From a virus, in the IMG/VR virus record IMGVR_UViG_3300042731_008414, positions 1-24,451 of that record: DNA of 24,451 nucleotides; one strand, written 5' to 3'. The position numbers were made by a program, and so were the translations under genes. The notes beneath the pieces are model-generated. The model was not told where the DNA came from. It saw nothing but the letters and a program-made list of their open reading frames with translations, and searched no databases. Numbering within the stretch: the stretch's first letter is position 1; every line of letters begins with the position of its first letter. Shown here one piece after another: positions 2,106-18,441 of this stretch.

Positions 2106-3233
2106 TCACCATCCCTTCGATGCGAGGAGCCTGCGGGCTCTCGCCATTCCGGGAGACAACTCGCCCACGGGGGAGACAGCAGAGACGTGCCGAGCCTTCT
2201 TGTCGGGCTCCTTACCCTTCTTGGGTGGCTCGTCCGCTACGTCGGTCTTGTCCTTCGATCGACGGGCGAAGTCGGCCTTTGAGGCGACGCCGTTGGCCTT
2301 CAGGAAGTGCCCGACGTGTCTTGCGACCAGCCGGGGGACGTCCACTTCGTTGAAGGGAACATCGGCGCCGATCCGCCAGAGGTCTACGGTGATGCGGTCC
2401 TGCACGATCTCTCGACAGTCGTCGATGAGACTCGCGGGGACCTTGGCGTCCGTCATCGACGCCTCGATCGCGCTGTTGACCTTCTCGGGAATCTGCTCGA
2501 GGGCTTCCTCGACGTCTTGCTGCTCCTGCCTTGCCTTGGCCCTCCCCTCCTTGGCGAGGTTCACCAGGTAGTGCTTCTCCTTCTCGGCCCTGGCCATCTG
2601 CCGCTCCAACCCCTTTGCTTCTCGCCACTGGCGATCGAGGTCTTTGCGGATCTGCTTGATGCCCTTCTCTCCGACACGAATCTCAGCCTTGAGGGTGCGG
2701 GCCTTGTCTTCGTCTTCCGCTTCCTCTGCGGCCTCGAGACGTCCCCGGAGTACGCCAAGGGCGCCGTTCTCGTCGTTCAGTTCCTTGAGGGAGTCGCGCT
2801 GTTCCTGCTTGAGTTCCTCTCCGCGTTGGTTCAGGTCGCTGATGGTGGACTCGACCTCCTGAATCTCGGGGATATCGGAAAGGTCTTCCTCTTCGGGGGG
2901 CTCTTCGCCGGGCGGTGTTCCTCGGCCTTCAAGCCTGCCCTCGAGTCGGGCCTTCTCGATCTCAGCGTCGCGCCTCTCCTTCGCGGCCTGGGACAGCTCT
3001 TTCGTCTGGGCCCAGTACGCTCCGGCTACGATGCGCTGCAGCTCCTCGTCAGACTTTCCAGGGTACTTCGCCTGGAGATCCTTCCAGTCCTTGTCGGGGT
3101 CCGGCTCAGGTGGGTCGTCGCCGGCATCACCAGAGGGAGGCTCCGGGTCGCCGTGGGGGTCGTCGTCGTCTCCGGGGGGCGGCCCCGGGTCGAGGTTGTC
3201 CTCGGGCGGATCAACCTCGGGGTCGTCTGGCAT
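2106..3233 (-). CDS. Scaffolding protein (putative)
   Basis: This 375-residue protein would guide capsid subunits into a procapsid and then leave or be degraded. The first 50 residues are almost all Asp, Glu, Pro and Gly. Residues about 55-260 are charged heptad-rich coiled coil (long Glu/Lys/Arg/Leu runs). The last 60 are Lys/Arg-rich, as in scaffold tails that bind the capsid floor. Length, acidic start, coiled-coil body, basic tail and position just before the capsid gene all agree. AGGAGG sits five bases before the ATG at 3233. A promoter-like TTGACA...GAGAAT pair lies upstream (3286-3315), so scaffold and capsid could be transcribed apart from the rest of the late operon. Confidence 0.8.
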   Translation of the reverse strand: MPDDPEVDPPEDNLDPGPPPGDDDDPHGDPEPPSGDAGDDPPEPDPDKDWKDLQAKYPGKSDEELQRIVAGAYWAQTKELSQAAKERRDAEIEKARLEGRLEGRGTPPGEEPPEEEDLSDIPEIQEVESTISDLNQRGEELKQEQRDSLKELNDENGALGVLRGRLEAAEEAEDEDKARTLKAEIRVGEKGIKQIRKDLDRQWREAKGLERQMARAEKEKHYLVNLAKEGRAKARQEQQDVEEALEQIPEKVNSAIEASMTDAKVPASLIDDCREIVQDRITVDLWRIGADVPFNEVDVPRLVARHVGHFLKANGVASKADFARRSKDKTDVADEPPKKGKEPDKKARHVSAVSPVGELSPGMARARRLLASKGW

Positions 3234-5266: not shown

Positions 5267-6154
5267 TCATCGGTTGTCCTTGCAGACGAATCCGCCCCTG
5301 GCCGGGTCCCCACACGCCTCGGCCGCCTCGAGAGCGGCAGCGCAGGAGCAATCCCGGAACAGGTCGCCTGGACAGAAGCCGAATCGCTGCGAGTGGCGCA
5401 GGTGCGGGCGCGAGCTCGTCAGCACGATGTTGAAGTTGGTGTCCCCGGGCCCGCCCTGGTTGCTCACGTGGCAGCCGCTCTTCTTCGGGCAGTCCACGTC
5501 CCGACACACGGTCTTCGTGGTCGGCCCCTGACAGTCCCAGGTGGTCGTTTGCTTCCCGAGCTCGTGGCAGGGCTTCGTGCAGTTGGCCTTGAGCTCGGCC
5601 GGGCAGGCGCCCTCTTCGATGACCCCGCTCCAGACGATGTCGCCCACGTAGGGCCCCTCCTCGACGCAGACCGGCGGGGTCGGCGTGGGGCTGGGCGACG
5701 GTGAGGGCGTCGGGGTCGGGTTCGGGCAGGGCTTGATCTGGACGTAGCCGTCCGCGATCAGGCCCGGGATGATGCTCGAGCGGGCGCAGGACGTCGCCAC
5801 GTCGATCTGGACGCGGCACTGCTCCGGGGATCGCGACTTGATGTCCGGGAAGTGGAACCGCTCCGTCTCCCCGGCGGCGACCTTCACGACGGCGTCCTCG
5901 GCCGCCTTCTCCTGCTCGTGGGGACCCCACCAGAAGTAACAGATGAGCCCGTGCCATGGCCCTGTCACATCCACGGCCCCGTGAGCCCAGATCTTCGCGC
6001 TCGCCCCGCCCTCAGCCGCGGGGGCGGCCTGGGGAACGGCTGCGGGCTCGGCCGCGGCGACCGGATCCGGTGGAGGAACCGCGGTCGGCGGCGGTGTGTC
6101 GGTCGCGCAAGCCCCGACCAGGGCCAGCAGTCCGAGTACGATCCACTTCCTCAT
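5267..6154 (-). CDS. Cys-rich lipoprotein with Pro/Thr/Ser linker, unknown function
   Basis: The product is 295 residues. Residues 1-16 form a lipoprotein signal peptide (Met-Arg-Lys start, Leu/Val/Gly core, Leu-Val-Gly-Ala-Cys lipobox). A Pro/Ala-rich spacer (about 20-50) leads to a first domain (50-145) with Trp/Phe-rich stretches. Then comes a Pro-Thr/Pro-Ser linker (about 147-162) and a Cys-rich second domain; there are 18 Cys in all. The layout of anchor, spacer, domain, linker, domain is that of a surface lipoprotein of a bacterium more than a phage structural protein. The start at 6154 has AGGAGG five bases upstream. It follows the lectin-like gene by nine bases and precedes the larger Cys-rich lipoprotein, so the two may be partners. 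No family recognised. Confidence 0.75.
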   Translation of the reverse strand: MRKWIVLGLLALVGACATDTPPPTAVPPPDPVAAAEPAAVPQAAPAAEGGASAKIWAHGAVDVTGPWHGLICYFWWGPHEQEKAAEDAVVKVAAGETERFHFPDIKSRSPEQCRVQIDVATSCARSSIIPGLIADGYVQIKPCPNPTPTPSPSPSPTPTPPVCVEEGPYVGDIVWSGVIEEGACPAELKANCTKPCHELGKQTTTWDCQGPTTKTVCRDVDCPKKSGCHVSNQGGPGDTNFNIVLTSSRPHLRHSQRFGFCPGDLFRDCSCAAALEAAEACGDPARGGFVCKDNR

Positions 6155-6163
6155 GACGTCCTC

Positions 6164-8746
6164 CTACCAGAACTTCCCTTCGCCCGCCGCGTAGTCCTCG
6201 GCCACCCCGAGCGGCCCAATGTCCCGGGACCAGATCTTGACCTCGTCAATCGGTCCCTGGAACCACTGAGCCGGAGAACTATAGGCACCAACGGTCGTCT
6301 CTGCCGTCACTGAGCCCACGACTCCTGTGGCAGACTGCGGGGTGCCTGCTACTCCGTCCAGGTAAGCCGTTGTGGATGTCGCGGTGGAGACCCCGCAAAC
6401 ATGGTGCCAGGTATTAGCATTGAGTACTCCGCCTGTGGCAACTACCGCCGCCTCCGTGGGACGCCGCGTGATGAATGCGAGGGTTGCAGTGGCACGGTAT
6501 AGATACGCACCCACGCCACCGTCGTAATGGCTGACAATGTGAGCATTCCCAGCACCAACCGTCTCTGTGTTGATCCAAGCGCAGATCGTGAACGGCCCGT
6601 TGGTGAAGCCCAGCCCGGGGGAGGCCAAGCTGAAGTACTGGCTGGTCCCGTCGAGATCCACCCCCATCCCACTCGTCGGCTGCTCCACCAGCCCTGCGGC
6701 CTGGGTGGGGGTGTTGACTCCGCTGAGGGCATGGCCGACGGCCATCCCAAGCAGATTCGTCCAGGCTGGCTCCACCCCGTTGATCGTCAGCGGACTCGAT
6801 ACCTCGCCCTGTATGGCCGAAGAGAAGCCAATCTTGTAGGTGCCCGTTGCCTCGTCCGCGAACGTCACCTTGAGGACGTCGTTCAAGTAGCCCTTGACGG
6901 TGGTCCCCGTCTTCTCCAACTTGAGGACGTCTCCTGAGCCATCACAGTTCACGCCGGTCGTCTGAGCCTCTACGCTCCCGAGGCGATACCAGATGACTCT
7001 CGTGGTGTCGGGGTAGCAGTAGGCTGCATAGTTGAGTTTTGCATACTGATCGGACTCGGTGGCTGTGACGGTGGCGTCGGTCAGGCCAAACATCTGGTAG
7101 GTCGTTGAGTTGTTGGTGGAGGTGATGGTCACGTCGTCGGAAGGTCCGAAGGAGTCGGACGTCTCAGCCCAGCTATACCAAGAACTCGGGTAGGTCGAGG
7201 TCACGAAGGCATTGTTGCTGCCCACGTACCAAGTAGTTGCCGGGTCATCATCCATGTCCCAGCATTCAACGAGGTTGACCTTCTCGGCAGAGGTCAACTC
7301 GCCGCAGGTCTTACCCTTGCCGGAGTTGTAGAAACCCGCGATCAGGGTATCGAAGTCCAGCTCGGTCCCCTTCCACACGACGCCTGCACTATGGATCGCA
7401 TCTCCGTACGTTGCCCCCCTTCTGCCAACGTAGAGTCCACCCGTGCTATTCCCATACGCCCGATGCTCCGTCCCGCTCGCCCACGCCGACCCATAGTTGG
7501 TGGTGACACCGTTCGACGCGAGGGCCTTCTTCTCAGAGATGTCGGTCCCCATGCAGTAGAGGCTTCTTCCGCCAGCGGAAACCCCAGTCGCAATCGTGGC
7601 GACAGAAGCGGCACCCGTGTCGGACCAGGACTCGACGTTGAGCTGGGTTGTTGCGTTGTATGCCTGAAGAATTGGAGTGCCACCACTTGTTTCGAGGATG
7701 GCGATATCCAGCTCGTTTCCCGCCACGCCAGCGGGCCTCACCCACTGGCAATACAGGTAGTCACTGCTTCCCGGATGGAGGGACTCAGGCTCGCCGTCGA
7801 TGTAGGCATACTGCGTCGAGGCCGAGGCGACCTCCATCGCCAGCCCCTTCGCCCCGCCCGTGGGGGTGGGGGTGTTGACTGGGGTCAGGTCGTAGGCGTT
7901 CCCGTAGACGACCAGAGGATCGGACGCCTCCAGGGTCCCGGTCGCGGTCCCGACCGTCCCAAAGATCGAGTCCGTGAGCCCCCAGGTCGAGAGGTCCATC
8001 GAGTAGCAGGTCGTGGCGGTGGTGTTCGCCTCGATCCACTCGCAGCTCCGGCCAGCCCCAGCGTTGTACAGGTCGGAGGCAGGCGGCTCCCCGTCGACGA
8101 AGGTGACTATCTGGTCCACGATCCCAACAAGGTCGGCACCGAGCGCGTTGGCTCCGATCTGGAAGTCTGCCCCCGAGTTCGGCGCGTCGTAGTCCATGTC
8201 CCCGGTGTCGCTGATGTAGCTGCCGCCATTGACCGAAATCCTTGCTTTTCGTGTCGGATCGAAGAAGTATCCGCAGAGGAACGTCTTGGCCCCCGGCGTG
8301 AACGCAACGGTGACCGACGTCTCCGTGTCCCCGACGATCCCACTCGCGTACTGAACTCCGATGACGTTCGTCCCGGTGTAGAAGTTGAGTTCGGCGTCGA
8401 TGAACCCGCCCTTGAACAGGATCGTCTGGTCGTTGCCCACATCGTCTATCCAGATGCAAGCCGAGAGCCCCTTGCCGAACTTATGGTTGAAGGCTTCGCT
8501 GTCAGCCACAGAGACGGAGTCGCCCGCGGAGAACGTTGCTGACTCTGCCCGGACGTTGAACGCCCCATCCCTCCCGAGGTCGTCTGGGTCGTTGAAGTTG
8601 TAGACGGCCATCAGGTTCGATTCGTAGGGAGGAGTGAAGTCCCCCGTCATGTCCACCGCCGCATCGTCCGGCTGGGACTCGTAGACCGGGCTCTGGGCCC
8701 ACACCGGGGCCGCCAGGAGAATCAGGACCGCCAGTAGATTCCTCAT
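6164..8746 (-). CDS. Exported multi-domain LamG/concanavalin-like protein
   Basis: The product is 860 residues with a Sec signal peptide at 1-17 (Met-Arg-Asn, hydrophobic core, Ala-Pro-Val-Trp-Ala then Gln). I see four beta-sandwich modules: about 45-240, 300-500, 510-660 and 690-860. The last shows the clearest LamG-like features (Trp-His-His-Val, a Tyr-Leu-Asp-Gly-Val turn, and Ile-Asp-Glu-Val-Lys-Ile-Trp near the end). Modules two and four are each preceded by a Val-Asn-Thr-Pro-Thr linker. Such modules usually bind glycans or proteins; no catalytic residues are evident. The ATG at 8746 overlaps the previous stop as ATGA. Large lectin-domain proteins in phages are often fibres, but a signal peptide would send this one out of the cytoplasm. 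The DNA looks less GC-rich than the neighbouring genes, which hints at separate origin. Confidence 0.8.
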   Translation of the reverse strand: MRNLLAVLILLAAPVWAQSPVYESQPDDAAVDMTGDFTPPYESNLMAVYNFNDPDDLGRDGAFNVRAESATFSAGDSVSVADSEAFNHKFGKGLSACIWIDDVGNDQTILFKGGFIDAELNFYTGTNVIGVQYASGIVGDTETSVTVAFTPGAKTFLCGYFFDPTRKARISVNGGSYISDTGDMDYDAPNSGADFQIGANALGADLVGIVDQIVTFVDGEPPASDLYNAGAGRSCEWIEANTTATTCYSMDLSTWGLTDSIFGTVGTATGTLEASDPLVVYGNAYDLTPVNTPTPTGGAKGLAMEVASASTQYAYIDGEPESLHPGSSDYLYCQWVRPAGVAGNELDIAILETSGGTPILQAYNATTQLNVESWSDTGAASVATIATGVSAGGRSLYCMGTDISEKKALASNGVTTNYGSAWASGTEHRAYGNSTGGLYVGRRGATYGDAIHSAGVVWKGTELDFDTLIAGFYNSGKGKTCGELTSAEKVNLVECWDMDDDPATTWYVGSNNAFVTSTYPSSWYSWAETSDSFGPSDDVTITSTNNSTTYQMFGLTDATVTATESDQYAKLNYAAYCYPDTTRVIWYRLGSVEAQTTGVNCDGSGDVLKLEKTGTTVKGYLNDVLKVTFADEATGTYKIGFSSAIQGEVSSPLTINGVEPAWTNLLGMAVGHALSGVNTPTQAAGLVEQPTSGMGVDLDGTSQYFSLASPGLGFTNGPFTICAWINTETVGAGNAHIVSHYDGGVGAYLYRATATLAFITRRPTEAAVVATGGVLNANTWHHVCGVSTATSTTAYLDGVAGTPQSATGVVGSVTAETTVGAYSSPAQWFQGPIDEVKIWSRDIGPLGVAEDYAAGEGKFW

Positions 8747-9225
8747 TCGACATGCACCGTTTTCTGGAGGGTGGGAGGCTGCTCGACCCTCCAATGCCAG
8801 TCAAGGGTCGTCTGCGTGAGAGAACAGGTCGAGTTCATGGTGAACGTCACCTGATCGGTCCCGGTAGAGAAGCTCATCGTGTAGGCCGAGATCACTCCAC
8901 CAGGCATCCCCGAGTAGTCGCTTCCGATGTCGACATAGCAGTCGAGGACGCTGTCGTTGTAGCAGGAGATGTACCAGTCCTGCGTCCGGGCCGCCTCGTC
9001 CGTTCCGTCGCTGCAGCGAATCGTGCCGAACACCCGCGCCCCGAAGACGTCGCCGTCCGGGAGGTCGATGGTGAAGAAGTCGGTCGCAGTCGTCTCGGTG
9101 AGCGCCTTCACCCCATAGCTGACTGCCGCCGCCCCAGGCCCCGAAGGCGGTGGGAACGTCTGAGCCAGGGTCAGAGCGACCCAGACCAGAGTGAATGACG
9201 CCAGCCCGACGATCAGGTTCTTCAT
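8743..9225 (-). CDS. Small exported beta-rich protein, unknown function
   Basis: The product is 160 residues. The N-terminus has Met-Lys-Asn and a hydrophobic stretch to about residue 21 ending Thr-Leu-Ala-Gln, which reads as a Sec signal peptide (an uncleaved anchor is also possible). The rest is Thr/Ser/Asp-rich, likely beta, with several Cys. The composition resembles the exported 244-residue protein two genes upstream, so it may share a fold. It starts at 9225 with a TGATG overlap with the previous gene and ends with an ATGA overlap with the lectin-like gene, so all three are likely translated together. The frame extends upstream to 9288, but that would bury the signal peptide. Confidence 0.7.
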   Translation of the reverse strand: MKNLIVGLASFTLVWVALTLAQTFPPPSGPGAAAVSYGVKALTETTATDFFTIDLPDGDVFGARVFGTIRCSDGTDEAARTQDWYISCYNDSVLDCYVDIGSDYSGMPGGVISAYTMSFSTGTDQVTFTMNSTCSLTQTTLDWHWRVEQPPTLQKTVHVE

Positions 9226-10889
9226 CAGTCGCAGTCCCACGCCCCGTTGAGCTTCTTGGCGATAGCCCCGCTCCCGCTTCCCGCACACGGGGTCGCCTTC
9301 GTGCAGTCCGAACAGTAGACCAGCGACCCGTTGCCCGCAGAGCCCGGAAGGTTAGCGAAAAGAGTCGGCTCCAGGGCCAGCACGTCCGTGAAGGTGGTAG
9401 CCACAGCCGAAGCCGCGGAGCCGATGTTGTAGGTGCTGTCCGCATGTGGCACGAGGTCTCCCGTCGTACTGACGATGTCCCAACGTAAGGTTCCATCCGT
9501 CTGTAAGTAGAGGTATTGAGCCTCGTCTGGCCCCACGATCATTGGCATGGGGCTGCCAGTTCCATTCGACTCTGTGGTCAGCTTGAAACTACCGCCGGAC
9601 GTAGAAATGACAGCACGCCTGTAGTTGCTGGTGTCCGTGTACGTGGAGTACATTCGAAGGATCTGGGGGGTTGTGCCAGCTCTTTGCTCTAGAATCCCGG
9701 TGCCGCTTCTGATGAGCAGGATGTCGGGGGTCGTCACCCTCGGATCATTGGTGGAGTTGGTCCACCCCACGCCGTAGCCAGCAAACACCAGCCCACTTGA
9801 GCCGACCGCTGATCCCTGGAACGCAGCATTCCAGTCGTCCGCAGCGGTGGCGTTCCAGCCGAAGCTGATTGTGTCTGCCCCAACACTGATCCCGGTCGTG
9901 GAGTCCGCCGAAGCTGAGTACGCAGGACCCTGGGCATCACCAGCCGGAGCCAAGAACTGTCCAGTCGTCGTCCCCGAAGGACTCAGGGTGACCCCGCTGG
10001 AGTCGATGGTGAACTCGTTGGCGTTGCCTGCGCTCTGAGCCGACCGGACGATGAAGGTCGTGTCGGTCGCACGGAGCTGCATGAGCGTGTTCTTGCCGCC
10101 GACCGTGGTGTCGACAGCCGCCGCGTATACGTCGTTGTCGCTGAGCCAGAGGCGCGAGTACGCCGTGGCAACGTCGTCGTAGTTCGACAGCTCCAGAGAG
10201 TCCGCCCCGGCCCAGATCCCCGTCTGAGGACGATTCACAAAGCTGTACTGGGGAGTGGCAAGCCCACCGTCCGGAGCCAGGAGCGGCCAGAACCAGCCCG
10301 AACTGGGGATGTAGCCGTAGGCCGAGATGAAGGCCACCCTAAAGGACGTGAGGGTGATGTCCCCGGCCTGAGTCGCCGTCTCCCCCGTGAAGGCGATGTC
10401 GATGGTCGAGGAGAAGGTCAGGCCAGACACAGGCCCGGAGGCGTAGACTCCAGTGGTCCCCGTGGTTCGGGTGTACGTCCCCTTGCCGATCAGGCTATCG
10501 GAGCCGTCGACGTACATCTCCACGGAGTTCTGGAGCTGGTTCCCGCTGGTGGCATCTGCCGTGTGAACTGACACAACCGTGCCGGTCAGGCCCCCGACTC
10601 GGATGCGGACCGTCTTGGCGTTGGTGTTGGCAGCAGCATCCCAGGAGACGAAGGCGATGAAGCCCGCGAAGTCGTTGGTCCCACCGAGGGAGTCCGCCGG
10701 GATGGTGCAGCTCGCCAGCACTTCCTCGATCGTGCCGGTCGTGGCAGCGGACTGTTCCGTCTCGACGCACAGGTTGTAGATCCCGCTGGCGAAGTTGTCG
10801 AGGCCGGTGGTGTTGCCCTCCGGAGGATAGACGTCCTGGGCCAGCAGGGGCGCAGCCAGGAGAAGTAGAACCCCCAGGAGCCGCTTCAT
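9225..10889 (-). CDS. Exported fibre-like protein with signal peptide
   Basis: The product is 554 residues. Residues 1-18 are a textbook Sec signal peptide (Met-Lys-Arg, poly-Leu core, Ala-Pro-Leu-Leu-Ala-Gln). Residues 20-240 form a Thr/Ser-rich beta domain. The middle (about 240-500) has repeating short beta units like those in tail fibres, with an Asp-Ser-Thr-Tyr-Asn-Ile-Gly-Ser repeat-like element near 490. The last 40 residues have Cys-Ser-Asp-Cys, a Gly-Ser-Gly-Ser-Gly-Ala stretch and a terminal Leu-Asn-Gly-Ala-Trp-Asp-Cys-Asp, an ending I associate with tail fibres and secreted beta-repeat proteins. The start at 10889 overlaps the previous stop as ATGA; the open frame to 11060 is not needed. 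Fibre-like sequence plus an export signal is the odd point. Confidence 0.75.
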   Translation of the reverse strand: MKRLLGVLLLLAAPLLAQDVYPPEGNTTGLDNFASGIYNLCVETEQSAATTGTIEEVLASCTIPADSLGGTNDFAGFIAFVSWDAAANTNAKTVRIRVGGLTGTVVSVHTADATSGNQLQNSVEMYVDGSDSLIGKGTYTRTTGTTGVYASGPVSGLTFSSTIDIAFTGETATQAGDITLTSFRVAFISAYGYIPSSGWFWPLLAPDGGLATPQYSFVNRPQTGIWAGADSLELSNYDDVATAYSRLWLSDNDVYAAAVDTTVGGKNTLMQLRATDTTFIVRSAQSAGNANEFTIDSSGVTLSPSGTTTGQFLAPAGDAQGPAYSASADSTTGISVGADTISFGWNATAADDWNAAFQGSAVGSSGLVFAGYGVGWTNSTNDPRVTTPDILLIRSGTGILEQRAGTTPQILRMYSTYTDTSNYRRAVISTSGGSFKLTTESNGTGSPMPMIVGPDEAQYLYLQTDGTLRWDIVSTTGDLVPHADSTYNIGSAASAVATTFTDVLALEPTLFANLPGSAGNGSLVYCSDCTKATPCAGSGSGAIAKKLNGAWDCD

Positions 10890-11620
10890 GGCGTCACCGA
10901 AAGGGTGGTCGTGACGCTCTCCCGAGTGCCGCCGTCGCTGGTGCCGTAGGCCAGCGAAACCCGGCACTGAGAGAAGGCGTTGTGGGGGATCTTGTACGAG
11001 AGCCCCTGGCCAACGGTGGAGAACTGACACACCGTCCCGCTCAGGGTCCCGTCCCCACAATCCGAGCTCGGACCGGGATAGACGCGGACTGCCGCAGACC
11101 CCAAGCCCGCTTCCTTGCAGAAGAACGCGACGTCCAGCGTGCCCAAGTCGCCCGCCGAGTACAGCACGGTCATCTGGACCGTGTGGTAGCCCGAAACGGT
11201 GATCCAGCCGTCATCGGCCCCGGTCCCGCACGTGTTGTTCAGCCACGAGAAGGGATGACCGGCGCTCCAGTCCACGGCGGTGTCGACCGTGATCGAATCC
11301 GCGGTGGCCTTCGCGGTGATGACGCGCACGTCGCGCACCGTGTCTCGCGTGACCATGATGACGTCGCCGGCCACCAGGTTCGTGAAGGGGTTGGTCCCGG
11401 CCGTCACCGCCGTCACTGTCGTGGACGAGCCACTCGTTTCGATCGGGACGCTCGAGACGATCGGATCCAGCCATGGGTTGCCGCTCCGTCCCAGGAGCGC
11501 ACAGTACGTCGCTGTGGTGCTTGCGACGTCGTAGCTGTAAGTGAAGTTTGCCGCCCGAGTCTGGGCCGCGACGGGGACCGCCAAGGCCACCAGGAGGGCG
11601 AGAATTGCCAGCTTCTTCAT
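10886..11620 (-). CDS. Exported beta-rich protein, unknown function
   Basis: The product is 244 residues with a Sec signal peptide at about 1-19 (Met-Lys-Lys, Leu/Ala/Val core, Val-Pro-Val-Ala-Ala-Gln). The mature part is Thr/Ser/Val-rich and probably all beta, with six Cys that could pair. It contains an Asn-Pro-Trp-Leu-Asp-Pro turn near 48 and a Ser-Trp-Leu-Asn-Asn segment near 126. No catalytic motif or family recognised. It is the first of four successive genes with Sec signals, and its start (ATG at 11620) shares one base with the previous TAA. It could be a secreted adhesin, an envelope-associated factor, or a structural protein that happens to carry an export signal. Confidence 0.75.
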   Translation of the reverse strand: MKKLAILALLVALAVPVAAQTRAANFTYSYDVASTTATYCALLGRSGNPWLDPIVSSVPIETSGSSTTVTAVTAGTNPFTNLVAGDVIMVTRDTVRDVRVITAKATADSITVDTAVDWSAGHPFSWLNNTCGTGADDGWITVSGYHTVQMTVLYSAGDLGTLDVAFFCKEAGLGSAAVRVYPGPSSDCGDGTLSGTVCQFSTVGQGLSYKIPHNAFSQCRVSLAYGTSDGGTRESVTTTLSVTP

Positions 11621-11883
11621 TACTCCAATTTCTCCTTGATTTCCGCGAGATCCTCTCGAATCGCACGGAAGTTCGCGTCCAGACGCTCCCGCAACACGGC
11701 GTTCTCCATCTCCACGGCCGTCGCCTTCAAGAGGGCCTCACGGGAGTCTCTCGAGATGTGGTCACGGTCCAGCTTCAGAAGCGTCCCGAGAAGACCCACG
11801 ATGGCAAGACTGACGAACCCCACGATCCATTTGGTATGACTGTCCGTCCCGATGAGCCTTGCGACCGGGTGCTCGCCATTCAT
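11620..11883 (-). CDS. Small membrane protein with coiled-coil tail (spanin-like)
   Basis: The product is 87 residues: polar N-terminus, one transmembrane helix at about 19-37, then charged heptad helix to the end (Leu/Glu/Arg/Lys-rich). An N-terminal anchor with a coiled-coil tail is the shape of inner-membrane spanins, and small membrane coiled-coil proteins also occur as holin helpers. It lies between the GroES-like gene and the exported block. The start ATG at 11883 is four bases past the GroES stop with only a weak ribosome site, so coupling is likely. I cannot separate a lysis role from a role in handling the exported proteins that follow. Confidence 0.65.
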   Translation of the reverse strand: MNGEHPVARLIGTDSHTKWIVGFVSLAIVGLLGTLLKLDRDHISRDSREALLKATAVEMENAVLRERLDANFRAIREDLAEIKEKLE

Positions 11884-11887
11884 GGCC

Positions 11888-12178
11888 CTACTCTTCCGGC
11901 CGTCGGTAGGCCAGGATCTCGTCCTCGCGGAGCATCACGAGATCCTCGCCCTCGTCGAGGTCGGTGCCGCTGTGCTGTCCGAAGAGCACCTCCATACCAA
12001 CCTCGACGACCAGGCCCGCCCCGCCGACGCGCCCGGAGCCGGCCGCGACGACGATGCCCTTGTTCTGCTGCTGCTGGTAGGTGTCCGCTACCTTGATCCT
12101 ACCCTCGTCATCGTGCGTTTCCTTCGGCTTGTGACGCTTCACGATGAGCTTGTCGTAGAGCGGGTTCCAGTCGGCCAT
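11888..12178 (-). CDS. groES-like: Co-chaperonin GroES-like (Cpn10) protein
   Basis: The product is 96 residues, the usual GroES length. Visible family features: an N-terminal Pro-Leu-Tyr-Asp-Lys-Leu-Ile-Val-Lys-Arg strand, a mobile-loop region at about 18-34, a Gly-Ser-Gly-Arg-Val turn near 47-51, a Val-Leu-Phe-Gly-x-x-Ser-Gly-Thr motif near 64-72, and a C-terminal Leu-Arg-Glu-Asp-Glu-Ile-Leu-Ala (83-90). GroES caps GroEL during folding. Several phages, best known T4 gp31, bring their own to fold the capsid protein. No GroEL gene is in view, so it would work with host GroEL. The hydrophobic mobile-loop tripeptide appears as Ile-Lys-Val rather than the usual fully hydrophobic triple. The start at 12178 directly follows the previous TGA, with a purine-rich GGAGGAGGAC upstream. 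Confidence 0.92.
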   Translation of the reverse strand: MADWNPLYDKLIVKRHKPKETHDDEGRIKVADTYQQQQNKGIVVAAGSGRVGGAGLVVEVGMEVLFGQHSGTDLDEGEDLVMLREDEILAYRRPEE

Positions 12179-12502
12179 TCAGTCCTCCTCCTTCGACCGA
12201 GCCATGGCATCGCCAGCGTCCTGTGCGCTGAAGCTGGCAACGCCGGAAGCGACCGGCCGTTTCTTCTTCACTTTCTGGGGCTTCTCCGGCTCGATCTCCA
12301 CCAGGGAGCCACGCCGGATCGGCGCGGTGGTGTTGTCCCGGTAACGGATGGCGGCCTCGCCGTCCTCTGAGCGGATGCTGTCGCCCCCGTAGACCCGGGT
12401 CCCAACGGGGGCTTCCTTCCACTCCCTCGAGCCCGCTCTGCGGACACGTGGCGGACGGCCCTTCGAGGCCGTGATGACGCCGCGGTGAGCCTTCTCCGCC
12501 AC
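12179..12502 (-). CDS. FecR-like small basic protein with shared C-terminal motif
   Basis: The product is 107 residues. Residues about 25-72 resemble the FecR beta domain (Trp, then Val-Gly-Thr-x-Val-x-x-Gly-Asp-x-Ile-Arg-x-x-x-Gly-x-Ala-x-Ile, then Arg-Gly-Ser-Leu-Val-Glu-Ile). A Lys-rich stretch (76-82) leads to the C-terminal motif Ser-Ala-Gln-Asp-Ala-Gly-Asp-Ala-Met-Ala (92-101) and a charged tail. The motif is shared with the three genes upstream and is identical over ten residues to that of the 12507 gene. I chose the GTG at 12502 (GGAGG nine bases upstream) over the further upstream start at 12544, which would only add an Arg-rich run overlapping the previous gene. FecR domains usually act in periplasmic signalling, but there is no signal peptide or membrane segment here. 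Confidence 0.7.
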   Translation of the reverse strand: MAEKAHRGVITASKGRPPRVRRAGSREWKEAPVGTRVYGGDSIRSEDGEAAIRYRDNTTAPIRRGSLVEIEPEKPQKVKKKRPVASGVASFSAQDAGDAMARSKEED

Positions 12503-12506
12503 GGGC

Positions 12507-12809
12507 CTACTCCTCCTTCTTCTTCTTGTCCTTCGCCATGGCATCCCCGGCGTCCTGGGCGCTCACGCTGGACGGGGCCTGCGCCGCCGCACGCTCCTTG
12601 CGCTTCTTCTCGAGCCACGTGTTGTACTCCCCCGCCGTGGCGATTCCGTACTTCTTGCCCGTCTCCTTCTCCCACGCCTTCCGCCACGGAGCGTGGGCAG
12701 CCTCGGCCTTCTGGCGCTTCGTCTCCCGGCTCGCCCTCGACGCCTCCTTCGACCGCTCCACGTAGGCGCCGTGGCCCTCCCGCTTCCTGCGCTGAACCTC
12801 TTGCGGCAT
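12507..12809 (-). CDS. Small Lys/Arg-rich helical protein with shared C-terminal motif
   Basis: The product is 100 residues, about one third Lys/Arg/Glu, mostly helical with Ala-rich stretches, and no membrane segment. A Trp-Arg-Lys-Ala-Trp-Glu-Lys segment near 42-48 and Tyr/Trp near 55-66 suggest a small folded core. It ends in Ser-Ala-Gln-Asp-Ala-Gly-Asp-Ala-Met-Ala plus a Lys/Glu tail. Strong positive charge fits DNA or acidic-protein binding, such as an internal head protein or DNA-condensing factor, but nothing proves it. I take the ATG at 12809; a GTG one codon upstream is also in frame. A purine-rich GAGGGAG lies just upstream. Confidence 0.65.
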   Translation of the reverse strand: MPQEVQRRKREGHGAYVERSKEASRASRETKRQKAEAAHAPWRKAWEKETGKKYGIATAGEYNTWLEKKRKERAAAQAPSSVSAQDAGDAMAKDKKKKEE

Positions 12810-12816
12810 CACTCCC

Positions 12817-13041
12817 TCACTTCCTCGACTGCGCCAGCTTGTCGCCGGCCTCCGAAGCCGAAGGACCCCGCCGCCGCCGGCCGACCTTCCGCCCGTAGCT
12901 GGCCATCCGACGCCGCGCCTGGTCCTTTCCCACGACCGTCTTGCTTCCGCGCTTGATGCCCATCGAGTTCATGAGTGCCCAGGGGTTGTCTACACCGCCC
13001 GCTCGCATCCCCCGCTCGATCTTCTCAAGCCACTTTGGCAT
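12817..13041 (-). CDS. Small basic protein with shared C-terminal motif
   Basis: The product is 74 residues with many Lys/Arg and no membrane segment. The N-terminal half is amphipathic (Trp-Leu-Glu-Lys-Ile near 4-8) with a Pro-Trp-Ala-Leu-Met-Asn segment; an Arg-rich run (Arg-Arg-Arg-Arg near 55-58) precedes the C-terminal Ser-Ala-Ser-Glu-Ala-Gly-Asp-Lys-Leu-Ala motif. It lies four bases after the stop of the previous small gene, with GGAG upstream of the ATG at 13041. Internal basic proteins of phage heads often look like this, but the family is unknown to me. Confidence 0.6.
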   Translation of the reverse strand: MPKWLEKIERGMRAGGVDNPWALMNSMGIKRGSKTVVGKDQARRRMASYGRKVGRRRRGPSASEAGDKLAQSRK

Positions 13042-13044
13042 CCC

Positions 13045-13272
13045 CTAGCTCCAGCAGGCCGCCAGACGATCCGCGACCTGGGCCGCCGAGGGAACACCTC
13101 CCCTCTTGCCCTTCTTCATCTTGCCCTTCAGGGCCCGCGTCAGGACGGGACCGGGCCTGGTCACCCGATCCTCGTTGATTACCTCGTTCTTCTCGGTGAA
13201 GTGGTACTTGTTCGCGTACCGAGGGGGCGGGTGGCGCTCGCCGATCTGCGAGGACTGGGAACTCATCTTCAT
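13045..13272 (-). CDS. Small basic protein after portal gene, with shared C-terminal motif
   Basis: The product is 75 residues: a Ser-rich start, an Asp/Glu/Arg middle, a Lys-rich patch (about 49-57) and a C-terminal Ser-Ala-Ala-Gln-Val-Ala-Asp-Arg-Leu-Ala motif, the most divergent of the four. No membrane segment or Cys pairs. It begins ten bases after the portal stop, with AGGAG six bases before the ATG at 13272. It is the first of four consecutive small genes between portal and GroES. I do not recognise it. Confidence 0.6.
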   Translation of the reverse strand: MKMSSQSSQIGERHPPPRYANKYHFTEKNEVINEDRVTRPGPVLTRALKGKMKKGKRGGVPSAAQVADRLAACWS

Positions 13273-13282
13273 CGCTCTCTCC

Positions 13283-15958
13283 TTACTGGGGTGGGGCCTC
13301 TTGGGGGGCGGCCCCCGGAGGCTGTTCGGTATCGCCCGGCTGGGGCTGCATTGCCATCATCTGAGCCTGCATGATCTGGCGGAACGCCTCGATCACGGCC
13401 CGCATCCGCAGAAGGTCGAAGAGCAAGGCCGCCAACTCCGCGTCCTCGTTGATGGGCACCCCGACCTTCTCCGAAGCCTCCATGGCCAGGATCACGTCCC
13501 GCAGGTATGGGCCGAGCATCCGCTCCCAGACCGTGAAGATCCGGAGCTCCTTCGCCTTCGGCAGGAACCCCTCGTCCGGGGGCGGTGGAGGGGGCGTCTC
13601 GAGGCCGGACCCGGGAGGTGGAGGACCCTGGGGGAGGAGACCCGTATCACGAGCTTGCTGGACCGCGTCGTTGTACAGACCCGTTGCCTGGGCGTAGATC
13701 TGGCTCCACTGCTCCGGGGGATACTGCTCGTAGATCTGCCGCTGGGCAAAGTCGAGGGCCTCGGCCTGGGCGTAGACGTCCTCCCAGCCGGTCAGGCGAG
13801 CCCACGTCTCATCGAATCGCGCCTGCTGCTGGAGCACGAGGCAGTCGTCGTCCATCCACCGCTTCTGGAAGATCTTGAACCAGATCACCGGCTCGTAGAG
13901 CGACGTGTCCACCTGGGGGACCTTCTGCTCCCGCATGAAGTCCGACCAAGCCATCTCCGCTCGTCGAATCTGGATCTTCTGGTCCTCGTTCACGTCGTCC
14001 GGTAGCCTCATGTACTTCAGGGCCGTCTGGACGGCTACGGGGTCGTTCAACTGGTAGAGCCCCATGTTGACCGCCTCGGACGCGGCCTCCTTGTCGTAGA
14101 GGGCCTGATCGTAGCCGGGGGCCGCGATCATCTTCACCTTCACCGTGCCCCGGAGCTCCGTCGCGTCAAACGCTTTCATCTCCCAGAGCCCAGCGTCAGA
14201 CTGGACCCGGTACTCGACCGGGTCCTTCCTGAACGTCTTGGCCATGTCGAGGATGTGCTGGAAGATGCCCTCGTAGATCGAGACGAGGCTTCGCTCCTTC
14301 GGCGCCCGGCGCTCTCCGGCCTGCTCCTGGGCCAGCATCAGGCCCGACGTCGTCTTGATCCCGCCGGCGCCGCGGCCAAGCTCGATGTCCTGGGGCGTCC
14401 CAATCAACTGGGCGTCCACGAGGATCTGGTTGCGCTCCTCCATGTACGGGTTTCCGGTCATGGGCACGCCCGGGAACACCCCGTCCCTTGGGCTCCACCC
14501 ACTGTCGGACTCGAACTCGAGGAGCTGGAGGGCCCCTTCGGTGTCCTTCCGGAAGTGGAACTCGACGTCCATTGGCTTCCAGATCATCGGCTTCCCGCGC
14601 TCGCGCAGGTCGATCACCTGGGCGTCGAGCTCGTTCAGCCGGCGCTGCAGTGGGACCAGGTCGGACACGAAGCCGCGGCCCCAGAACATCCCCGGGACCC
14701 GCTTCTGGCGGGCGATGTGGTACTTCACCCGGGGGACGAGCACCTCCGCTCCGTCCTCGAGCTGCACCGGGACGCAGAGCGGCCGGGAAAGCAGGTTCTC
14801 GTTGACCTTGACGAAGTGGGCCCCGAGCTCAAGCCCGGGCCGGCTGTCGGGCTCGACGACACACTCCTCGACGAGAACATGGTTCTGGTAGGCGTCCATC
14901 CCGTGAGCGGCGAGCCCGAAGAGCATGCCCGTGGCCACCAGGGCCGGGTCGGAGTACAGGGGGTTGAGCCGGAGGATCTTCTGCGGGTCGTCGGGCTGGA
15001 TCTTGCCCTCGAGCTGCGGGTACCGCTTCAGCACCTCCTCCATGGGTCGCGCCGTCATCTGGTGGTGGACCCTGCAGGTGTAAGGCTCCACGCCAATCCC
15101 GCCGTTTTCCGGGTAGTATTCGTGGATCGACACCACCTCGATCGCGTCGTCACCCTTCGGCAGCATCCGTCCCAGGGGGTTGCCCAGAGAGTCCGCACCC
15201 TCGGCAGCCTCTTCCGGCCCCACGTCGTAGGGCTTGAGCTCCGCCTCGCCGCACATCGGGCAGTGGACGGCCTCGACGTTGTACTCCTTCGCCCCGGGCG
15301 CCACGGGCCCCGTCTCACGGACGGTGGCGGCACCCTTGAAGGGCTGAAAGGCCCCGCCCTGGGGAATCCCGGTTTCCAGCATCGTGTGGGGCAGATAGGG
15401 GCTCGCCAGCTTCGCATCGCACGACGGGCACACCCGGGCGTCGGGGGACCCGACCGGCTCCATCAGGTTCCGGTCCTCGTCCCAGAAGCTCCGGGCGATC
15501 GCCGTCTCGTCGATGCAGAGGTTGAAGGCGAGCTGCTCCCGCTTGTCGCCCCATGCTTGGCTGTTCGCCTGCCACGTGACGTAGTCCTTCGCCAGCCGCG
15601 CCGCGGCCAGCCAGTCCTGGTGGCGCTTCGACGTGGCCGTCTCCGGGACGTACTCCTTCTTCGTCAGCCGAGCCACCTCGTTGTCCACCGCCGGGGCGAT
15701 GATGTTGGTCACCGGCCGCTTGTACTCCGCCAGCGACCGCTTGTAGACCTCGCGGAAGTGGTAGACCCCCTGGCCGGCGGAAAGCTCTCCCACCGGCTCG
15801 ACCCACTGGCGCCCGTGATACATCCAGGCGTTGAGGGCGGAACGCTGGGTGATCCAGCGACGACGCGGGGAGATGGGGTTGATGGTCCGCGCCAAGTATT
15901 GCTTGACGCGGTCCTCGGACGTGTTCAGGGTCGGTAGTGCGTGCTCCTGCCAGTCCAT
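13283..15958 (-). CDS. Portal protein (putative)
   Basis: The 891-residue protein would form the dodecameric ring at the head vertex through which DNA is packaged. It lies after large terminase, at the size and in the order expected of a large portal, with a Pro-rich C-terminal region (about 770-800) and a helical C-terminus rich in Met/Gln. Residues 177-180 (Cys-Pro-Ser-Cys) and 233-236 (Cys-Pro-Met-Cys) form a candidate zinc-binding insert, which is not a standard part of the family. It starts with ATG at 15958 directly after the previous TAG, with only a weak ribosome site. The call rests on size, context and general sequence character; I see no single diagnostic motif. Confidence 0.8.
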   Translation of the reverse strand: MDWQEHALPTLNTSEDRVKQYLARTINPISPRRRWITQRSALNAWMYHGRQWVEPVGELSAGQGVYHFREVYKRSLAEYKRPVTNIIAPAVDNEVARLTKKEYVPETATSKRHQDWLAAARLAKDYVTWQANSQAWGDKREQLAFNLCIDETAIARSFWDEDRNLMEPVGSPDARVCPSCDAKLASPYLPHTMLETGIPQGGAFQPFKGAATVRETGPVAPGAKEYNVEAVHCPMCGEAELKPYDVGPEEAAEGADSLGNPLGRMLPKGDDAIEVVSIHEYYPENGGIGVEPYTCRVHHQMTARPMEEVLKRYPQLEGKIQPDDPQKILRLNPLYSDPALVATGMLFGLAAHGMDAYQNHVLVEECVVEPDSRPGLELGAHFVKVNENLLSRPLCVPVQLEDGAEVLVPRVKYHIARQKRVPGMFWGRGFVSDLVPLQRRLNELDAQVIDLRERGKPMIWKPMDVEFHFRKDTEGALQLLEFESDSGWSPRDGVFPGVPMTGNPYMEERNQILVDAQLIGTPQDIELGRGAGGIKTTSGLMLAQEQAGERRAPKERSLVSIYEGIFQHILDMAKTFRKDPVEYRVQSDAGLWEMKAFDATELRGTVKVKMIAAPGYDQALYDKEAASEAVNMGLYQLNDPVAVQTALKYMRLPDDVNEDQKIQIRRAEMAWSDFMREQKVPQVDTSLYEPVIWFKIFQKRWMDDDCLVLQQQARFDETWARLTGWEDVYAQAEALDFAQRQIYEQYPPEQWSQIYAQATGLYNDAVQQARDTGLLPQGPPPPGSGLETPPPPPPDEGFLPKAKELRIFTVWERMLGPYLRDVILAMEASEKVGVPINEDAELAALLFDLLRMRAVIEAFRQIMQAQMMAMQPQPGDTEQPPGAAPQEAPPQ

Positions 15959-16616: not shown

Positions 16617-16912
16617 CAGCTCCAGTCCAGCATGACGCGCACGGCGCCTGTGTAGTCCTCGCGGTTCCGGTACTCGCCGAACATGGCGATAGACCAGTAG
16701 TTGTTGAGCTTGGCGGCCAGAACGCCCCGGATCTCCTTCTCCTCCGATCCCGGCTCCTTCTCGACCTCCACCTCCAAGATCGCGGAGTTCGTCTCGAGGC
16801 CGGAGAGGACCTCGTCGACCTTCATCTGCACCGCGAGATCGTTGAAGCGGCGGACTTCCTGAATGCCGCCCCGGCGCGTTGGCATGAGAACCTTGTGCAG
16901 TCTCGGATCCAT
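16616..16912 (-). CDS. Small protein directly after large terminase, unknown function
   Basis: The product is 98 residues from the ATG at 16912, which overlaps the TGA of large terminase as TGATG (a GTG nine bases upstream is also in frame). The sequence alternates charged and beta-prone segments with a Glu-rich middle (about 50-60) and ends in Asp-Trp-Ser. No membrane segment or motif is visible. Tight coupling with the terminase gene suggests a packaging or head role. Confidence 0.55.
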   Translation of the reverse strand: MDPRLHKVLMPTRRGGIQEVRRFNDLAVQMKVDEVLSGLETNSAILEVEVEKEPGSEEKEIRGVLAAKLNNYWSIAMFGEYRNREDYTGAVRVMLDWS

Positions 16913-18441
16913 CAGTTCCACCCGGGCATTTCCGCCCCTACTTCCTTGTTGCGTTGGTTGAGGTCAATCCGCTTCCGGATCGCCTTCCTGACGGCGATGT
17001 TGTGCTGCTCGATGAAGCCGGTCCCGCCCTCCTTCTCCTCCGCGATCTCCCGGCCCCAACGGTTCAGGTTCGACCAAGACTTCGGGATCAGCAACTGGCA
17101 GCCCTGAGTCAGAGCGTCCACCAGGTCGTCGTGGGCGCCGTGCGGGAACGTCGCGGCCTCGTTCACCAGCTCGTCGGCGACGTTGTGGCCGCGAGGCAGG
17201 TAGAAGTTGCCGGCCTCGATGAAACCGGCCACCGAGTTCACACCCCAGTGCATCCGGACGACCTTGGAGCCCTTCGCCCGCACGGGCACGATACCGGAGA
17301 GCTCACGCTCAAGCATCTGGATGATCGCGGGCCCGGAGGCCGCTTCCTCGATCAGAATCCGCTTGCCGAGGGGCCACTTCTTCTGCATCCCCCGGATCGC
17401 CCGCACGGTGTTCGGGGCGTTCAGATGCTCCCGGACCCCGTCCAGCATGTAGACCTTGTGGCCGATCACGCCGAGGACCAGCCCGCCCACGAAGTCGGAG
17501 GACGCGGTGTCCTTGAAGGTCGGGTCCCAGGTCTGAATGATCTTGTCGAAGGCTTCCAGCGCGGGGCGCTCGGTCTTCGGATCGTACCACCGCCACCAGG
17601 TCCGCTCGATAGCCAGACCCTCGGCTGGAGTCGGGCGCTGCTGGTAGAGCGCGGAGAAGACCCGCGGACGCTTCTCCCGGATGTTGTTGAGGAACTCGAA
17701 GTCAAAGCCCTTCTCGGGCCAGATGGGTTCGTCTTCGGCCCGGCCCAGGGGGTCGTCCTCCTCGGCCAGCGACGGCAGATTCAGGACCGTCCAGTTCTCC
17801 GGTTCTCTCGCGAGGAGCCGCCCGCACACGTCGTCCTCGTGCCACCGGGTCATGATGACCACCTGAATCGCGTCGGGGGCCCGGCGAGTGAGGAACGTCG
17901 TCTCATACCACTCCCAGGTGTTGTCCCGGATGACCTTGGAGTCTGCCGCCTCGGCATCCTTCACGGGGTCGTCGAGGATCAGGACGTCGGCGCCGCGCCC
18001 GGAGATACCGGTCCCGATACCGGCGGCGAAGAGACCCCCACCGTCCGTCGTCTCCCAGCGATGCGCGGCCCGGGAGTCCTCGAGAAGGCGGGTCCCCACC
18101 ATCGGGTAGTGCTCCCGGATCGACCGTCGGGTCGCCCGCGAGAACTTCGACGCCAGGGAGAGCGCGTAGGAGCAGAGGATGATGTTGGTGGAGGGGTCGA
18201 GGGCCAAATTCCAGACCGGGAACCAGTGGGAGCAAAGCTCGCTCTTTCCGTGCCGCGGGGGGCACATGACCATCAGGTTCCGAGGGGCCCCGGGCATTCT
18301 CGCGTGGAGCGAGACGAGCTCCCGCGAGATCATCCGATGGTGAGGAAAGGCGACCCACGGATCGGTGTGGCCTTTCGTCAGAGTCGTGGCGAGAGTCGCC
18401 GGGCTCAGAAGATGGGCGTAATCCTCAACGTGGGTCGCCAC
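16912..18441 (-). CDS. terL: Terminase large subunit
   Basis: The product is 509 residues. Residues 61-68 (Pro-Pro-Arg-His-Gly-Lys-Ser-Glu) are a variant Walker A loop. Residues 153-158 (Val-Leu-Ile-Leu-Asp-Asp) are Walker B, and Met-Thr-Arg-Trp-His-Glu-Asp-Asp (197-204) is the following family motif. The C-terminal nuclease has Thr-Trp-Asp-Pro-Thr near 304-308 and His-Asp-Asp-Leu-Val-Asp near 437-442, the expected acidic residues of the RNase H-like fold. It packages phage DNA into the procapsid using ATP and cuts it at the start and end. The start is GTG at 18441, four bases after the holin stop with no clear ribosome site, so translation is probably coupled. Confidence 0.95.
   Translation of the reverse strand: MATHVEDYAHLLSPATLATTLTKGHTDPWVAFPHHRMISRELVSLHARMPGAPRNLMVMCPPRHGKSELCSHWFPVWNLALDPSTNIILCSYALSLASKFSRATRRSIREHYPMVGTRLLEDSRAAHRWETTDGGGLFAAGIGTGISGRGADVLILDDPVKDAEAADSKVIRDNTWEWYETTFLTRRAPDAIQVVIMTRWHEDDVCGRLLAREPENWTVLNLPSLAEEDDPLGRAEDEPIWPEKGFDFEFLNNIREKRPRVFSALYQQRPTPAEGLAIERTWWRWYDPKTERPALEAFDKIIQTWDPTFKDTASSDFVGGLVLGVIGHKVYMLDGVREHLNAPNTVRAIRGMQKKWPLGKRILIEEAASGPAIIQMLERELSGIVPVRAKGSKVVRMHWGVNSVAGFIEAGNFYLPRGHNVADELVNEAATFPHGAHDDLVDALTQGCQLLIPKSWSNLNRWGREIAEEKEGGTGFIEQHNIAVRKAIRKRIDLNQRNKEVGAEMPGWN

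Follow-up and report, generated by a model that had tools for sequence, protein, structure and literature searches.

The tagged genes between portal and GroES

The stretch of DNA analysed in this work (the window) comprises 24,451 bases and corresponds to a single IMG/VR virus record. Its structural genes all lie on the minus strand, in the order terminase large subunit, three small genes, portal, four small genes, GroES, a block with several genes for predicted exported proteins, putative scaffold and major capsid protein (MCP). The terminase large subunit (16912–18441) matches phrog_38 (E = 9e-108), and the MCP (827–2086) was recognised by its match to phrog_14242, major head protein (1.1e-19), and by capsid alignment. 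The portal protein (13283–15958), which matches phrog_332, head-tail adaptor (E = 4e-4), and is alignable across the clade described below, is the upstream neighbour of the four small genes, and a phage GroES (Cpn10; 11888–12178; PF00166, 2.6e-13) is their downstream neighbour. The putative scaffolding protein (2106–3233), whose gene precedes that of the MCP, has an acidic, coiled composition and gave no convincing match in a family search. It shares with scaffold-like proteins of L010 (14103–15245) and of other clade members a conserved C-terminus of the ARxxLxxKG[LW] type, found clade-wide, which is probably the coat-binding end of these proteins. Between the GroES and scaffold genes lie five consecutive ORFs (5267–6154, 6164–8794, 8743–9288, 9225–11060 and 10886–11620) with signal-peptide-like or lipoprotein-like N-termini, and such an exported-type block (5267–11620) is odd within a head module.

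An earlier inspection of the window (the sequence-only reading) had described four consecutive small proteins (12179–13272) that all end in a common motif. This was confirmed for the four minus-strand ORFs that lie between portal and GroES. Protein 1 (13045–13272, 75 aa; family A), encoded by the first gene after the portal, is basic and largely unstructured, contains the sequence RPGPVL and could be aligned with 15 homologs; its tag, SAAQVADRLA, occupies residues 62–71 (13060–13089) and is followed by ACWS. Protein 2 (12817–13041, 74 aa) is a basic protein of family B that begins with MPKWLEKI and has homologs in L003 and L004, with the tag SASEAGDKLA at residues 61–70 (12832–12861) and QSRK after it. 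The Lys/Arg-rich protein 3 (12507–12809, 100 aa; family C) contains TGKKYGIAT and has a homolog in L002, and its tag SAQDAGDAMA (residues 83–92, 12534–12563) precedes KDKKKKEE; homology between this protein and that encoded at 11652–12158 of L020 was unsupported by BLASTP. Protein 4 (12179–12502, 107 aa; family D) consists of a FecR-like beta domain and a linker, and carries the tag SAQDAGDAMA at residues 92–101 (12200–12229), followed by RSKEED. It starts at a GTG, which the L002 homolog favours over an ATG at 12544.

The four bodies are unlike one another, as had been stated, without significant mutual BLASTP similarity, and the possibility that they are full-length duplicates was thereby dismissed. 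They had also been described as three Lys/Arg-rich proteins and one FecR-like protein. The FecR-like fold was supported, but the division by composition was not, as all four are strongly basic, the FecR-like one included (net charge of the bodies +8.7 to +12.5 at pH 7). A Pfam profile search of protein 4 returned no FecR match at E ≤ 1; the AlphaFold2 model of this protein has a beta domain at residues 6–69 (pLDDT about 90), and its top two matches among viral folds are both annotated as FecR protein (probability 1.0; E = 0.002 and 0.065). The short polar or basic tail attributed to every tag differs in all four proteins and forms no constant part of the motif. In proteins 3 and 4, the KKEE/KEED tail is encoded by AAGGAGGAG, which can act as a Shine-Dalgarno sequence for the next gene.

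Distribution and conservation of the tag

The window belongs to a clade of about 28 IMG/VR contigs, and scans with the portal alignment and with the capsid alignment reached the same set. All relatives are metagenomic; none was found among 84,980 bacterial and archaeal genomes of GTDB, and a search by portal or MCP protein recovered no cultured relative among 50,697 phage records of INPHARED. The usual order in readable members is portal, small tagged genes, GroES, scaffold and capsid, and almost all readable portal–GroES clusters encode from one to six tagged small proteins, with one recognised in L036, two in L005 and at least six in L013. The tag remains conserved in genomes whose portals are as low as 38–48% identical. 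In L010, four tagged genes stand in a row; for the most part their bodies differ from the window's, and the tags form a dialect of their own (TTKSAGKALM, TTKDAGRALM, STKDAGRALM and DTKQAAKALM).

Other genes also occur at or near the portal. A small RING-like zinc-finger protein, unusual in a phage, lies directly after or near the portal in L019 (8603–8824; zf-C3HC4 at E = 0.003, which does not reach the Pfam cut-off) and L027 (3967–4179), and similar Cys/His-rich ORFs are present in L017, L018, L025 and L033. A lytic transglycosylase matching phrog_342, internal virion protein with endolysin domain, directly follows the portal in L015 (7392–7862), L017 (5672–6121), L018, L025 and L033. The ends of these SLT lysozymes, mostly the tag-like LSGRDIEEALGGV (SGRDIEEALG), were suggestive by eye, and were set aside as not significant in the held-out test.

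The tag is carried by about 20 body types in the clade, grouped by eye and none of them recognised as kin, and the body of each window protein has homologs in other genomes. The tag is C-terminal in most cases, with 1 to 32 residues beyond it, and N-terminal in a minority, as in L020 and L013. The FecR-like body illustrates this well: it bears a C-terminal tag in the window and in L002, whereas its L020 homolog (48% identity) lacks the C-terminal tag and has an N-terminal one instead, with the start MPSAKDAAAAIG. Bodies of the DUF6496 family (PF20106) were matched above the Pfam cut-off in L016 (7e-12) and L032 (4.6e-15), with the tag outside the domain match. DUF6496 proteins of six other phages showed no tag at the C-terminus, and the domain's own helix (e.g., SRKQAVAIALSEA) is somewhat tag-like. 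The tag is therefore a module, which is placed terminally at either end of a protein.

The consensus of the ten residues in the clade is [ST]-A-x-[DE]-A-[GA]-x-A-[LMI]-[AM]. In all, 44 tags were curated, 31 of which come from genomes that do not belong to the subclade of the window. A position-specific model of these 31 scored highest, in each window protein, precisely where the tag lies (shuffle p = 0.0012, 0.0002, 0.0004 and 0.0002 for proteins 1 to 4). When each genome group was left out in turn, 43 of the 44 tags were recovered at the curated place, and 35 of the 44 had p ≤ 0.01. The reverse held-out model, trained only on the window, L002, L003 and L004 and applied to the other genomes, reached p ≤ 0.01 in 16 of 62 portal–GroES genes and in 1 of 246 other genes. 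The counts obtained with the full profile are descriptive, since it was built from the tags themselves: 39 of 53 small cluster proteins had a terminal score of at least 13, as against 0 of the 127 small proteins encoded elsewhere in these genomes and 2 of 297 from contigs of unrelated phages; over entire contigs, 25 genes reached this score, with 1.4 predicted from shuffles. That the motif is a common helix end, one of the two refuting conditions named beforehand (full-length duplication being the other), was rejected on the held-out test and the counts in unrelated phages. Weak single cases may be due to chance, Ala-rich motifs being easily matched. In a database-wide DNA scan for TKDAGxALM, the tag was found only in the L010 contig, the remaining matches being internal to unrelated genes. 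The scan for AxDAGDA[LM]A matched 84 contigs, and a near-C-terminal motif was convincing only in clade members (window, L002, L005 and L021); the near-C-terminal matches in L110 and L099 are probably fortuitous.

Conservation of the tag acts at the level of the peptide. Codons for the same residue differ between tags in 133 of 278 comparisons, against 153 expected if they were independent, and the tags of proteins 3 and 4, identical in amino acids, differ in 4 of 10 codons. Recent copying would leave identical codons; therefore, codons nearly as different as chance indicate that the tags are not recent DNA copies, and their near independence points to selection on the amino acids. Tags on different bodies are more alike within a genome (5.50 of 10 identical positions) than between genomes (4.06; permutation p = 0.0005). 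Such a pattern is to be expected if the tags of a genome share one receptor and this receptor has diverged between lineages.

Both the periodicity and one of the structure models suggest a helix. The information per position shows a periodicity of 100 degrees per residue (p = 0.013). A helix capping box is made up of [ST]1 and [DE]4, while positions 2, 5, 6, 8 and 9 point toward one side, so that conservation tracks a single face of an N-capped helix. In the AlphaFold2 model of protein 1, a helix is predicted at the tag (residues 63–73, pLDDT 71–78), which is the best-scored part of a chain whose overall value is 60. The model of protein 4 shows a low-confidence linker and tag after the confident beta domain, with the tag helix unresolved. 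Judged by the protein 1 model together with the periodicity, the tag is predicted to have helical character.

Proposed docking of the tag and alternative readings

These data give good support to the proposal that a common tag on unrelated bodies acts in targeting or docking, as the tag is modular, terminal at either end, selected at the amino acid level and found clade-wide. We consider it very probable that the tag docks to a partner shared by all the proteins that bear it. That this partner is a component of the procapsid is somewhat more likely than not. The portal and the putative scaffold are both candidate receptors. The scaffold is our first guess because in P22 it is the proposed docking site of the ejection proteins, although as a specific partner it is a tentative choice with slightly less than an even chance, and the portal ranks second. 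The correlations of tag distance with protein distance (scaffold 0.33, MCP 0.36, portal 0.21, GroES 0.10) are weak and not separable.

We hypothesize, with somewhat better than even confidence, that the tag is a portable docking helix that binds a procapsid partner and so packages mostly small basic proteins in the head with the DNA. In such a mechanism, a basic protein would be produced beside the portal and scaffold genes, and its flexible chain end would bear an alpha helix with an N-cap (S/T-x-x-D/E), small residues and a single binding face. This one-faced helix would bind a site on the growing procapsid, where many unrelated proteins could use one common partner, and the tagged protein would be enclosed in the head with the DNA and might exit with it at infection. 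The tagged proteins would thus end up in the virion, and roles in DNA compaction or anti-defence are guesses as to what the cargo does there. A broader claim, that these scaffold-type phages use a transferable terminal cargo-loading code, tuned to the receptor of each genome, accepted at either end, used by about 20 unrelated families and amounting to an open slot through which arbitrary proteins, such as packaging or anti-defence factors, could enter the head, seems to us as probable as its opposite.

Other readings of the tag have to be weighed against packaging. It is unlikely, yet the most serious of these, that the tag docks to a partner outside the head, be it GroES/GroEL, a protein of the host (RNA polymerase, for example) or a complex formed early in infection. 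GroES lies downstream of the tagged genes in most loci, and the statistics point to a common partner, whichever that may be. However, the tagged genes are found among head genes, a second and weaker set lies near an internal-virion-protein gene (see below), L016 has tagged genes on both sides of GroES, and GroES is the protein whose distance is tracked least by tag distance, weak as these correlations are. Recruitment of GroES is thus the least likely of the options that had been listed before. A little less probable still is a homotypic assembly helix, by which the tags would bind each other through packing of the Ala-coil type and form one complex with no separate receptor. The small residues on one face (A2, A5, G/A6 and A8) would suit close packing, and self-recognition would also yield similarity within a genome; the single recognised tagged protein of L036 and the two of L005, together with the polar residues at variable positions, where no obvious self-complementarity is seen, argue against it.

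The remaining readings are considerably less probable. A C-terminal end with no common function, spread through duplicated or recombining genes, could account for the identical tag peptides of proteins 3 and 4, since neighbours may swap ends, but such spread appears improbable in view of the codon differences in the whole set and between these two proteins, the maintenance of the tag across a clade with such divergent portals and its N-terminal position in L020. Duplication had been named as the alternative to targeting; in the form of a recent DNA event it is disfavoured by the codon divergence. We regard as marginally less probable again a protease-recognition or degradation signal, either a processing site or an ssrA-like degron, which is suggested by the A-L-A/A-M-A-like residues near the C-terminus. 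A C-degron would hardly be followed by as many as 32 residues or stand at the N-terminus of some proteins, as this tag does, and no Peptidase_S78 or Clp-type protease gene was found in the 8 contigs searched. Finally, the motif could be the chance translation of a nucleic-acid element that serves the next gene for ribosome binding or coupling. The possible Shine-Dalgarno sequence mentioned above encodes the residues just past the tags of proteins 3 and 4. In 35 of 42 tagged genes, moreover, the following gene starts no more than 15 nt away, and in 15 of these a Shine-Dalgarno core is present. Nevertheless, freedom at synonymous positions, helical periodicity and the N-terminal occurrences leave this explanation nearly refuted.

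Known packaging signals and a second tag cluster

Among open-access papers, we found none on a common C-terminal motif of small portal-adjacent phage proteins, and, to our knowledge, how internal proteins are chosen in most scaffold-using phages is poorly known. The closest likeness is to phage T4, whose internal proteins are small and basic and whose targeting sequence (CTS) stands at the N-terminus, from which the gp21 prohead protease cleaves it. On the highly diverse T4 proteins IPI-III and Alt, this short conserved peptide directs its bearers to the procapsid core (PMC3012670). The tag of the window is likewise a short conserved peptide common to unrelated proteins of one phage. Unlike the CTS, it is mostly C-terminal and has a different sequence, and packaging is here a hypothesis. 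A search of 8 contigs for prohead proteases of the S78 and Clp types found neither, a result limited to these two types. By analogy, the tag may work like a targeting sequence, a likeness that falls short of placing it in the T4 kind.

Other systems resemble the tag in part. In phage P1, a short N-terminal stretch of the giant internal protein DarB sends this protein, and also a reporter, to the head, and no consensus among the Dar proteins was found by the authors of that work (PMC9024508). The tag is similar in being a short terminal stretch but differs in its clear consensus across many proteins. Encapsulins load cargo by short C-terminal peptides into a shell related to the HK97 type (PMC7925596); unlike the present phages, encapsulins are not viral, and they differ from them in the type of both peptide and binding site. 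The ejection proteins gp7, gp16 and gp20 of P22 are recruited during the procapsid stage of scaffold-based head assembly and are proposed to dock on the scaffold (PMC12005531), but no common short tag is described there and these proteins are few and larger. If the tag does load cargo, it would correspond to the T4 targeting sequence in a simple, mostly C-terminal form that serves many more protein families than usual. It would then provide a sequence rule by which packaged phage proteins, often candidates for anti-defence, could be listed straight from metagenomes, and a candidate handle to place foreign proteins in phage heads.

Entire contigs of relatives contain weaker tags in the same frame, drifting from the consensus, in another cluster, for example IRAGDLAEAMAARRL in L157 (629–817), AKAKDAFEALTR in G004 (34578–34778) and VSAKDGAKALADN in L170 (13693–13854). 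This second cluster lies close to a giant protein in G002 (2403 aa) and in G004 (2367 aa). Giant proteins of 2166–2835 aa are encoded in L156 (9523–16023; G001), L157 (1999–9210; G002), L162 (11479–19986; G003) and L165 (6006–13109; G004). Those of G001, G002 and G004, which span 2166–2403 aa, match phrog_6651, internal virion protein (E-values from 4e-18 to 3e-23), and that of G003 has helicase domains of the Strawberry-notch type, the domain type of phage P1 DarB. The giants are candidate ejected multi-domain proteins, and the position of the second tag cluster near internal-virion-protein giants gives circumstantial support to a packaging role. The giants of G001 and G004 also show Zeta_toxin-type domain matches. 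In one genome, G006, a cluster beyond the capsid genes (L170, 12958–16080) has the variant end motifs RPQDAYQAFL, ARPKDLFQAML (N-terminal) and PRDMFQSMS, which are perhaps a second dialect of the tag.
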